This document shows positions 19,204 to 21,944 of a stretch of DNA of 64,000 bases, one piece after another. Under the pieces are notes generated by a model. It was given only the letters and a program-made list of their open reading frames with translations. It was not told the DNA's origin and ran no database searches. Numbering within the stretch: the stretch's first letter is position 1; each line of letters opens with the position of its first letter. Source of the DNA: Oscillospiraceae bacterium (GTDB taxonomy: Bacteria > Bacillota > Clostridia > Oscillospirales > Acutalibacteraceae); NCBI GenBank assembly GCA_910574935.1, contig CAJTCU010000002.1, positions 186,001 to 250,000 on the forward strand, read 5' to 3'. The translations under genes and the position numbers were made by a program.

Positions 19204-20811
19204 TCATTCCTCCTCGTTGGGCCCCGCACTGACAAGGACTGTCACAGCAGTACCGTATTCCAGCGAGTCCCCGGGCTGGTAATCCTTATAACCGATCACA
19301 TAGCCCAGCTCTACCTCATCGTCAAACTGTTCCTCTTTTACGGGCGAAAAACCACTTTGTGTTAAAGCAGCCTGTAGTTCGGCAAAATTGGCCCCCTTAA
19401 AATCTGGAAGCTCCCGCATGGTCATGCCTCTACTGACAGTCACTGTCACCGTGCCGCCCGGCTGCACTGTCTCACCGGCCAAGGGCTCCTGGCTAATAAT
19501 GCTGCCTTCCGCTACATTGGGGTCAAAGTCCCGCTTGGCCTCTTTCAGTTTAAAGTTGAACTCGCCACTGTTCACCCGGTTCTGCCAGCGCTCAAAGTTC
19601 TGGTTTACCATATTCGGCACCTCAACAGGCTCTTCCTCTTGGCTGTTATTAAACAGATTTCCCAGGTCATTAAAAGACATCCCCTGCTCCCCCAGCCAGT
19701 GGGACGCAACTACAATTAGAATTCCCAGGGTGATCACTAAGGAGCCAATCAGCCACACCACTGGCGGCAGTCCCCGGCGATGCCTGGGCAAGTCCATAGA
19801 GGCCGGAGGTAGACGCCGAATCGCGTCGGTCTCCTCCACCTCGTCCACTAGGGCCGGGGCCGAGGTGAGCTCCGCCCTTAAGCTTTCAAAACTGCCGGTA
19901 CGGGCCGCCTGTTTGATTTGAAGCGAATTTGCAATGGCCGTTACCGCAAAAGGCGGCATCGTTTTTAAAATGTCCCGGGAGATCATCAGCCGCTGGTCCT
20001 CCAGACGCTGGCTGGCCTCGACGGGCAGCTTTCCGGTAAGAGCATACAGCATACACGCGCCTACCGCGTACACATCGCTAACTTCGCCGCAGGTCGCCTT
20101 AGCACTGTATTGCTCAATCGCCGCGCAGCCCGGGTACAGGTCAATGTCCAGCACGCCCCCCGCCCTGTGGACCGCGTTAATGTGAAAGCCGGTAATCAGC
20201 ATATTGCCGTCTCGGGTTACCCGCAGAGAGTCCGGCGAAATGGCCAAATGAGAAATCCCCAGGGAGCTAATCAGCCCCAAAGCAGTAATCACCGGGGTAA
20301 ACAGGCGGCTGGTCTCGTTCCAGGTTAGCCGCCCGCCGTTATCCGCCACATAGCGGCGCAAAGAGGAGGACGGTATTCCCTGATACACCGTATAAACCGT
20401 GCCGTTTTCCTCCAGAATATCTATCACGGACTCTACCACTGTAAGCTCCCTTAGGCGGCTAATGCCCTTAGCCAGGTCCATAAAATCGTTCCTATACTGC
20501 TGGAACACCCGGTTATGCTCCCGGCTGGACAACACTGCGCCGTAGTCATCCCGATGGGCAATGGCAGCGGGAAAAAACTCCCGTATTTCCACCGGCTTTT
20601 GGGTAGAGGTATCCAGCGCGCAGTATGTAATCCCCTCTCCATTGGCAGACCTGGCACGGCCCAGCACATAATGAGAGGCGAGCTCCGTCTGATATTTCAG
20701 CGTCCCCTGGGGCTGAGCCTTGCCGTTGTCCCAGCCGCACACCGGACATACACTGCCATCCTCCACGGGACGGTAGCTGGAAAAGCAATTCATACAGAGC
20801 TTACTGAGCAT
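19204..20811 (-). CDS. Membrane pseudokinase with zinc ribbon and PASTA domains
   Basis: 535 aa. N-terminal zinc ribbon (CMNCFSS...CPVCGWDN, residues 7-28), a protein kinase-like domain (about 45-300), one membrane helix (about 350-370) and two extracellular PASTA domains (about 395-535). Kinase key residues are lost: the beta3 lysine motif reads VEIREFFP, where relatives have VAIKEFFP-type sequences; the HRD loop reads HLAISPDSL (Asp to Ala, Asn to Ser); the DFG site reads ITGFH. It is therefore probably a catalytically dead relative of PknB/PrkC-type kinases that could sense muropeptides and act as a scaffold. It has its own promoter and stands alone, with no phosphatase gene nearby. Confidence 0.85.
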   Translation of the reverse strand: MLSKLCMNCFSSYRPVEDGSVCPVCGWDNGKAQPQGTLKYQTELASHYVLGRARSANGEGITYCALDTSTQKPVEIREFFPAAIAHRDDYGAVLSSREHNRVFQQYRNDFMDLAKGISRLRELTVVESVIDILEENGTVYTVYQGIPSSSLRRYVADNGGRLTWNETSRLFTPVITALGLISSLGISHLAISPDSLRVTRDGNMLITGFHINAVHRAGGVLDIDLYPGCAAIEQYSAKATCGEVSDVYAVGACMLYALTGKLPVEASQRLEDQRLMISRDILKTMPPFAVTAIANSLQIKQAARTGSFESLRAELTSAPALVDEVEETDAIRRLPPASMDLPRHRRGLPPVVWLIGSLVITLGILIVVASHWLGEQGMSFNDLGNLFNNSQEEEPVEVPNMVNQNFERWQNRVNSGEFNFKLKEAKRDFDPNVAEGSIISQEPLAGETVQPGGTVTVTVSRGMTMRELPDFKGANFAELQAALTQSGFSPVKEEQFDDEVELGYVIGYKDYQPGDSLEYGTAVTVLVSAGPNEEE

Positions 20812-20855: not shown

Positions 20856-20884
20856 ATTATAGCATATTTCTATTTATTTTGCAA
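20856..20884 (-). promoter_or_regulatory. Vegetative promoter of the pseudokinase gene
   Basis: On the minus strand TTGCAA (20884-20879), 17-nt spacer, TATAAT (20861-20856). The -10 lies about 45 nt upstream of the start codon. Confidence 0.8.
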
Positions 20885-20986: not shown

Positions 20987-21178
20987 CTATTTTTTAGATC
21001 CAGTGGCCTCTTTGCGATGACACAGCCTGCTATTTGGACAGTTTGAGCAGCCACATCCACAGCCGCTCTCTCCCCTCTTCCTCTTTATGATCCCCCGCAC
21101 CACCACAGCGATAAACAGGACCGCGACCACAGCGGCAATGAGCAGAGTGGGCAGGTTAACCGGCGTTTGCAGTAACAT
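20987..21178 (-). CDS. FeoB-associated Cys-rich membrane protein
   Basis: 63 aa. One N-terminal membrane helix (about residues 10-28), a basic KRKRG stretch and a Cys-rich tail (GCGCGCSNCPNSRLC). This is the pattern of the small Cys-rich protein usually encoded after feoB and thought to assist ferrous iron transport. Its partner genes upstream are decayed here, so it may be an orphan or serve another FeoB elsewhere. Confidence 0.85.
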   Translation of the reverse strand: MLLQTPVNLPTLLIAAVVAVLFIAVVVRGIIKRKRGESGCGCGCSNCPNSRLCHRKEATGSKK

Positions 21179-21216
21179 AAAAATCCCTCCTTATTTGCCC
21201 GCGGCCATGTCCGAAC

Positions 21217-21832
21217 TCACTGCCGCACGGCCGTCATCGTAGCGGTTGCGCCTTGCCAACGGATATTCCACGCCGGGATGCCGGCAAACATTTTGTCTTT
21301 TTCCAGATCACGCCAGAGATCATGATAGCGGCTGCACCAACAAAATATGCTAAGATGGCCACCCAGGTACTGCCGCCAAACAACGCTCCCGCGAACAGAG
21401 CAATAATAGGCATCTTTGCGCCACAGGATGCAAAGCAGGCCGTCATAATCGTCATGCGGCGGTCCCGCTTGTTCTCTACTATGGTGCGGGAGGCCATCAC
21501 CCCTGGCACACCACAGCCAGTCCCCACCAGCACGGCGCCTACACCGCCTATTATACCATCATTAATCAGCCCAGACAACCATTTGGCACAGTCAATTTTT
21601 TCCAGCCAGCTGTCCACTACCACCGGAATGCTTTCCACCCAAGTACCATAAGCCTGGAGGCTGGGCATACACCAAAAACATTTCCGCTATAAAAACAGAC
21701 AGAACCAGCACTCGGTTGGTGGCCCCCGGCCAGTCCTGTCGGATACGGAAAGGCTGTGCCGGGTACCTGCGCCTGACCAGTTATTTCGCGGATCAGTCCT
21801 GTGTTACCCAGGGCCCCCATTTTCAAAGGCAT
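21217..21832 (-). pseudogene. Decayed feoA-feoB ferrous iron transport locus
   Basis: The minus strand begins with a FeoA-like start, MPLKMGALGNTGLIREITG (from 21832), then changes frame to a FeoB membrane segment (NRVLVLSVFIAEMFLVYA). It changes again to a FeoB piece, YGTWVESIPVVVDSW...GLINDGIIGGVGAVL. There the family's next approximately 45 residues are missing and GAVL joins directly to VGTGCGVPGVMASRTI. The piece runs through RDRRMTIMTACFASCGAKMPII and shifts frame once more at KKTK/MFAGIPAW. No G-protein domain remains. Several frameshifts and deletions make it non-functional. Confidence 0.85.
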
Positions 21833-21944
21833 CCTGCCTCCTCCTTCCACATTGTATTAGTTTTTCCCAGCTCATAAATTATCCCACACTAACCACCAAC
21901 GTTTGTCCATAGCCTTTTGCAAAAAAATGCCACTTCTCCATAAA

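Follow-up and report, generated by a model that had tools for sequence, protein, structure and literature searches.

What can a protein do that combines the fold of a Hanks kinase with a membrane helix and PASTA domains, when the residues of phosphate transfer have been replaced? This question is raised by a gene at 19204..20811 (minus strand, as are all features of the gene given below) of the window, the 64,000-nucleotide stretch of an Oscillospiraceae genome that was analysed here. The gene encodes 535 aa followed by a stop codon, and its product comprises a zinc ribbon, a pseudokinase domain, a membrane helix and two PASTA domains. A sequence-only reading had taken it for an intact gene without decay and had proposed that its product acts at the cell wall as a sensor or scaffold, without catalysis.

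Architecture and catalytic residues of the window protein

The open reading frame 19204-20811 is uninterrupted, with zero internal stops. The order of parts that had been read from the sequence was borne out by Pfam and by an AlphaFold model with a mean pLDDT of 89.1, in which a kinase fold (about residues 45-320), a membrane helix and two PASTA domains are predicted and the kinase and PASTA parts mostly exceed 90. The zinc ribbon (residues 1-38, C6xxC9 ... C22xxC25; 20698..20811) is indicated by Cys conservation and by pLDDT block means of 81-93. Its four Cys are kept in 72, 80, 81 and 81 of 81 aligned rows, and the remaining rows are gaps, mostly from a start codon chosen further in. The pseudokinase domain (residues 45-320; 19852..20679) has pLDDT block means mostly >90 and is followed by a juxtamembrane linker (residues 321-349; 19765..19851) with pLDDT <50 at 321-347. 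By eye, this linker is of low conservation except for an LR.ELS..PT stretch at its start, and we infer it to be a candidate phosphorylation region. A single helix in the model (residues 350-375; 19687..19764) would cross the membrane, and PASTA domain 1 (residues 396-460; 19432..19626) and PASTA domain 2 (19228..19413) complete the protein. Pfam matched both PASTA domains (3.2e-21), and its Pkinase model matched below threshold (25.4 bits versus a cut-off of 31.7). The closest solved fold to the pseudokinase domain is PpkA (Z 30.7, rmsd 3.2, 277 aligned), and the PASTA kinase PknB gives Z 26.7 and rmsd 2.9 over 250 aligned residues. Hence the predicted model and the fold matches place the domain among proteins with a Hanks kinase fold, as is expected of a protein pseudokinase.

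Residues were assigned by reference to the genome's own PrkC and to 38 relatives that are catalytically intact by sequence, of which 36 carry K-E-D-N-D and two carry one mild change each. The four replacements named by the sequence-only reading stood in the alignment: R77 for the beta3 Lys (20581..20583), A190 for the HRD Asp (20242..20244, also by the family census below), S195 for the catalytic-loop Asn (20227..20229) and G208 for the DFG Asp (20188..20190). The claim that all key catalytic residues are replaced thus held for those four, but it had overlooked the loss of the alphaC Glu, which is L113 here (20473..20475) and is Glu in 37/38 and Asp in 1/38 of the intact relatives. Further replacements are L189 for the HRD Arg, H210 for the DFG Gly, E59 for the glycine-loop Phe and A231 for the APE Pro. 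All three residues whose loss defines a pseudokinase, the VAIK Lys, the HRD Asp and the DFG Asp, are therefore replaced. Judged by its sequence, the window protein is presumably devoid of catalytic activity, as we infer.

Upstream of the gene, a consensus scan found an extended -10 promoter-like site (TTGCAA-17-TATAAT with TG; 20856..20884, minus strand) whose end lies 45 bases upstream of the ATG. Motifs like it (TTG...TATGNTA or TGNTATAAT) were seen by eye upstream in 5/8 aligned near relatives (L115-L118, L120). The gene had been credited with a good promoter of its own; the match and its recurrence favour this, but the same scan gave 3 promoter-like sites in the region versus a mean of 1.1 in shuffles, which weakens it. 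Among the neighbours of the pseudokinase gene at 78 loci (L061 and L087 were dropped since no focal ORF was found), none is widely conserved. The best gene family occurs at 16/78 loci and is presumably YebC-like, by its sequence features. An operon partner was accordingly rejected. A defence gene was also considered; the PADLOC matches are to generic kinase models (PD-T4-6, E 7.8e-22), and the role was rejected because this is a solitary gene with vertical inheritance. The adjoining part of the window (20987-21850, minus strand) holds a 63-aa ORF (20987-21178) without NCBIfam match and short ORFs. A 144-aa ORF at 21234-21668 (minus strand) matches about 80 FeoB positions (E 3.9e-17), and since it covers only these, feoB looks like a remnant beside the gene.

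Distribution, conservation and origin of the losses

The pseudokinase gene, whole or partial, was found in 135/150 genomes of the window's family (f1). Two of these genomes have fragments only (G050 and G013), and one has a C-terminal match only, with the kinase part unread (G144). Two more matches lie outside the motif reading (G140, E 1.1e-61; G096, 2.1e-32). In 13/150 family genomes no recognisable orthologue was found, including six genomes that are >=90% complete (G033, G041, G046, G056, G086 and G107), and three of these six good assemblies are about 1 Mb. The raw presence count of 146/150 (115/115 good genomes) overstates the distribution, as PASTA or PrkC matches are included in it. 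In good genomes without the pseudokinase we also observed frames of 183-238 aa that match just the PASTA and membrane-helix region, possibly kinase-less versions of the protein: G046:C18:15128-15715 and G107:C53:47392-47943, where the match contains a stop, and G033:C38:14828-15343 and G056:C7:15263-15877.

Beyond the family, a subset of matches was read in surveys of the order and the class, and matches starting at model position >=81 were taken as PrkC-like by range alone. Among the matches read in 245 genomes of the order, pseudokinases belong to f1, f26 and f23 (G171, L300), and the other kinases (f1, f2, f7, f9, f14, f16, f20 and f26) are intact zinc-ribbon kinases. Among those read in 291 genomes of the class, one pseudokinase lies outside f1, f26 and f23 (L289).

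The decisive column is that of the HRD Asp. The 171-172 "dead" sequences used for other comparisons were selected by HRD not being Asp, and because this defines the set, the absence of Asp is not provable from it. Unbiased counts come from the best match per genome, from the census, from 80 named loci taken whole and from a tree built without the catalytic columns. Taking the best match in each of 81 genomes including the window's, the column is Gly in 66, Ala in 13, Cys in 1, Ser in 1 and Asp in 0. The family census, resolved at 131 of 135 loci, gave Gly 106, Ala 21, Ser 2, Glu 1, Cys 1 and Asp 0; the column is unresolved at L195 (G128), which reads HLG in another reading of the locus, L198 (G050) and L199 (G013), and L205 (G144) is without a kinase match. 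The 80 named relatives (Acutalibacter, Neglectibacter, Scatolibacter, Caproiciproducens, Anaeromassilibacillus, Ruminococcus bromii and uncultured kin) gave Gly 60, Ala 20 and Asp 0. An orthologue with an intact catalytic triad, which would have refuted the sequence-only reading, was thus sought and not found among the 131 same-family loci or the 80 named relatives. The alphaC column behaves similarly, with Glu in 0 and Asp in 1 of 130 resolved family loci. The beta3 Lys is retained in 8/131 family loci and the DFG Asp in 13/131, and both together in 5/171 pseudokinase sequences (L260-L263 of f26 and L034 of f1), some of which may bind nucleotide, judging from these two residues. The pseudokinases mostly read GF[SCA] at the DFG motif, and the window protein reads GFH. 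The orthologue alignment therefore upheld part of what the sequence-only reading suggested: losses of the HRD Asp and the alphaC Glu are constant, but the full combination of replacements varies. Since most examined species of the family are broken at the same key place, the protein probably signals without being an enzyme.

Other positions are under evident constraint. PASTA and Pkinase models both matched in 81/81 family proteins, and the HRD His, DFG Phe, APE Glu, Glu78, Arg87 and Arg304 are invariant in 81/81. The invariant residues of kinases have well-established structural roles. In the alignment, then, the residues that hold the fold are kept and those of the chemistry are lost. Moreover, several residues are conserved in the pseudokinases only, namely W164 (166/171), R215 (153/171), F171 (152/171) and N57 (144/171). 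Together with A231, these pseudokinase-specific positions are 84-97% conserved; the window protein has His at the R215 position. Conservation of residues in pseudokinases only suggests an acquired surface rather than decay.

The origin of the losses was traced with 71 kinase domains in a tree from which seven catalytic columns had been removed. It sampled random rows (20 from f1 and 20 intact), seven chosen f26 rows and additional loci; rows with <180 filled columns were dropped, and the long-branch or divergent intact L231, L287, L288, L290 and the second frame of L226 were omitted, as was L289. In this tree, 34 pseudokinases drawn from three families fall into a single clade (bootstrap 99, SH-aLRT 97), which is sister to the 32 sampled intact zinc-ribbon kinases, and a single switch of state is enough to explain the pattern. 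The f1 and f26 pseudokinases (49 rows, SH-aLRT 100) were also united in a quick tree with 102 rows. The f1 sequence L258 (G319) groups with f1, and the place of L303 is unsure because of its long branch (1.73). By these trees, the pseudokinase family is ancient and vertically inherited, with a single ancestral loss. All 34 clade members are without the HRD Asp and the alphaC Glu, and some keep the Lys or the DFG Asp; the former two were hence most simply lost in the common ancestor. This suggests an order of loss, in which the HRD Asp and the alphaC Glu went first and were followed, in some members of the clade, by the beta3 Lys and the DFG Asp. L289 (G631), from a different family within the class, is a zinc-ribbon pseudokinase with beta3 Asp and HRD Asn that lies outside the main clade, and is a second, separate loss.

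Selection was estimated from 92 pairs with dS <1.6, with values taken from the 15 pairs of lowest dS. For the two pairs whose proteins are most alike, dN/dS is 0.06 and 0.10. The 13 further pairs (dS 0.54-0.85) have 0.30-0.50, all <1, and codon bias may have made their dS too low. The closest sequence pairs are under strong purifying selection. With the uninterrupted 535-aa frame, this agrees with the earlier view that the gene is intact and not in decay.

Possible partnership with PrkC and other readings

A search for a catalytically active paralogue found that the window's genome has two Pkinase matches only, the window gene and a PrkC that is catalytically intact by sequence. The PrkC gene adjoins a PP2C-like gene (by eye). 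PrkC matches with E <= 1.0e-98 are present in 114/115 good family genomes, the exception being G144 (1.9e-7), perhaps through a broken contig. An ancient shared loss, purifying selection and an intact paralogue make a sensing or scaffolding role likely, and the non-catalytic role at the cell wall proposed by the sequence-only reading is supported to this extent.

A non-catalytic cell-wall receptor that modulates PrkC is the best explanation that we can offer, and we hold it tentatively. PASTA domains are regarded as binders of cell-wall material, and some Hanks kinases pair through their N-lobes. In the proposed mechanism, peptidoglycan fragments or lipid II of the cell wall would be bound by the two extracellular PASTA domains, and the cytoplasmic kinase-shaped domain, with the zinc ribbon at its N-terminus, would act as a binding module without phosphate transfer. 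The most likely target would be PrkC, the sole intact Hanks kinase found in the genome, and it might be reached by N-lobe-to-N-lobe pairing, by the pseudokinase being a PrkC substrate or by competition for the same ligand. As a result, the pseudokinase would alter how strongly, or on what, PrkC acts. Ligand binding, the partnership with PrkC and the sign of this partnership are conjectural.

The surface that would serve in N-lobe pairing can be compared with that of PknB, whose R10 and D76 have roles in dimerisation. Model residue 47 aligned with PknB residue 10 in the fold comparison, D76 is mutated in one listed PknB structure entry, and we take positions 47 and 131 to be the equivalents of R10 and D76. 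Position 47 is basic (R/K) and position 131 acidic in 141/171 pseudokinases and in 26/38 intact relatives; residue 47 of the window protein itself is His. The position aligned with PknB Leu33 is Thr in the window protein and variable in the family. On these residues, the surface appears compatible with pairing and is not diagnostic of it. PrkC matches also occur in six good genomes without the pseudokinase, and thus PrkC does not need the pseudokinase. Co-occurrence of the two is weak evidence because PrkC is near-universal. No physical or genetic link to PrkC was seen, as the pseudokinase gene stands alone, and this counts against the PrkC reading.

The absence of a sequence link to PrkC equally leaves room for a PrkC-independent scaffold that senses the cell wall, in which the ribbon and the pseudokinase would hold another cytoplasmic or divisome partner at the membrane. 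Strong conservation of the zinc ribbon and of several pseudokinase-specific residues accords with such a scaffold, and the membrane pseudokinase EssB/YukC is a precedent (PMC12599244). However, no widely conserved neighbour suggests another partner, and the ribbon is common to intact kinases and so need not serve a pseudokinase-specific task; we regard this scaffold as possible but rather doubtful. Decay or an assembly artefact would be the simplest account of the lost catalytic residues, and the apparent feoB remnant adjoins the gene. This account is largely refuted and very improbable in view of the intact frame, the PASTA and kinase matches in 81/81 proteins, the low dN/dS of the closest pairs and the presence in 135/150 genomes.

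Two more specific readings are unlikely. In one, PrkC would phosphorylate a Thr of the pseudokinase and an FHA protein would bind it, for which MviN is a precedent (PMC12599244), and the single FHA match of the window's genome lies in a frame with FHA and FTSW_RODA_SPOVE. However, FHA matches are absent in 27/115 good family genomes, the pseudokinase is present in at least 11 of these (G001, G004, G023, G027, G032, G037, G038, G042, G053, G055 and G058), and G056 and G086 have FHA matches and no pseudokinase. An obligatory FHA reader is thereby ruled out at family level; with the linker poorly conserved, such a switch could hold for a subset only. The FHA match of the window's genome is an FHA-FtsW/RodA-type multi-membrane fusion (L314 1-1902, minus strand, G000:C3), and FHA-matching frames of similar size (about 560-640 aa) occur in many family genomes. 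The other reading, to which we give an equally small chance, is a kinase-fold enzyme with another activity (e.g. AMP transfer, as SelO) or an ATP-binding switch. SelO and SidJ are indeed enzymes without the HRD Asp, and five relatives of the window protein retain the Lys and the DFG Asp; yet SelO and SidJ retain a Lys and an Asp at those motifs (PMC12599244), and in the window protein both metal-binding positions and the alphaC Glu are replaced and the glycine-loop tip is acidic.

We think it possible, on somewhat less than even terms, that the window protein represents an undescribed receptor pseudokinase family, near-core in a large family of gut bacteria, that sets PrkC output by non-catalytic pairing or ligand competition. 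If true, it would be a bacterial counterpart of animal receptor pseudokinases. In common gut Clostridia (Acutalibacter, Neglectibacter, Caproiciproducens and Ruminococcus bromii) this receptor-type pseudokinase is near-universal, and the window's genome, with PrkC as its sole other Hanks kinase match, offers a clean system in which to study the function of a dead kinase at the cell wall.

Comparison with known systems

A pseudokinase family with zinc ribbon and PASTA domains is not described in the literature searched, a scope that excluded most subscription literature and preprints. A 2025 review of bacterial pseudokinases counts seven families with functions largely unknown, four of which (ActPs1-3 and GLW) are mainly actinobacterial or proteobacterial (PMC12599244); the 42-family kinase classification cited there may contain the present family under another label. 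The sequence comparisons confirm and extend the original observation, lend support to its interpretation and point to a broadly conserved, apparently new family of bacterial pseudokinases.

The window protein shares kinase fold, membrane helix and PASTA domains with the PASTA kinases Stk1, PknB and PrkC. Unlike them, it scores 116.6 bits against the cut-off of 450 with NCBIfam NF033483, its catalytic residues are not intact and it belongs to a separate clade; the PrkC of the window's genome has no zinc ribbon and intact catalytic residues. The nearest intact relatives in the tree are the zinc-ribbon Hanks kinases of Clostridia (VAIKEYFP...HRDISPDN), which share the four-Cys ribbon and the beta3 E-[FY]-x-P stretch. 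They form the sister clade, unmixed with pseudokinases, and differ in length, in C-terminal parts and in keeping K, E, D, N and D in 36/38. Neighbouring intact zinc-ribbon kinases were seen at L294, L295, L306 and L307; the long ones (frames about 1240-1530 aa) have a membrane helix and, by eye, PASTA-like repeats, and beside them lies a shorter kinase with a tail that, by eye, is similar to a solute-binding protein.

DYD pseudokinases resemble the window protein in the change of the beta3 Lys to Arg (R77), in lacking the alphaC Glu (L113), in membrane association and in occurring in firmicutes, but they preserve HRD and/or DFG and have a DYD motif (PMC12599244), whereas the window protein reads HLA and GFH, and Phe follows the DFG Asp position in 81/81 family proteins.

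The MviN pseudokinase domain (ActPs3) of mycobacteria is presented in the same review as membrane-bound, active in cell-wall control, phosphorylated by the PASTA kinase PknB and forming a back-to-back dimer (PMC12599244). The likeness lies in a membrane-bound pseudokinase in cell-wall control. MviN differs in that its pseudokinase domain is within a membrane protein needed for peptidoglycan synthesis, is mainly actinobacterial and works through FhaA, and the description there mentions neither PASTA nor zinc ribbon (PMC12599244). An activation-loop deletion is the ActPs3 hallmark; from the DFG position to the APE Glu there are 25 residues in the window protein versus 28 in PrkC, the only protein with which this length was compared.

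CD2148 of Clostridioides difficile is, by its published description, also a clostridial membrane Hanks protein with replaced D and N. It has Ser at both positions (PMC9674922, PMC8262956), no autophosphorylation was seen and it was phosphorylated in vitro only with PrkC. Its mutant showed >4-fold more phosphorylation at a PrkC-dependent CwlA site, and its authors regard it as a kinase controlling 41 phosphoproteins, allowing only that it may be a pseudokinase (PMC9674922, PMC8262956). It differs in having no PASTA domains, its kinase domain was cloned as residues 1-278, and the text of the paper makes no mention of zinc. By analogy, the window protein might act in the manner of MviN or, perhaps, of CD2148.
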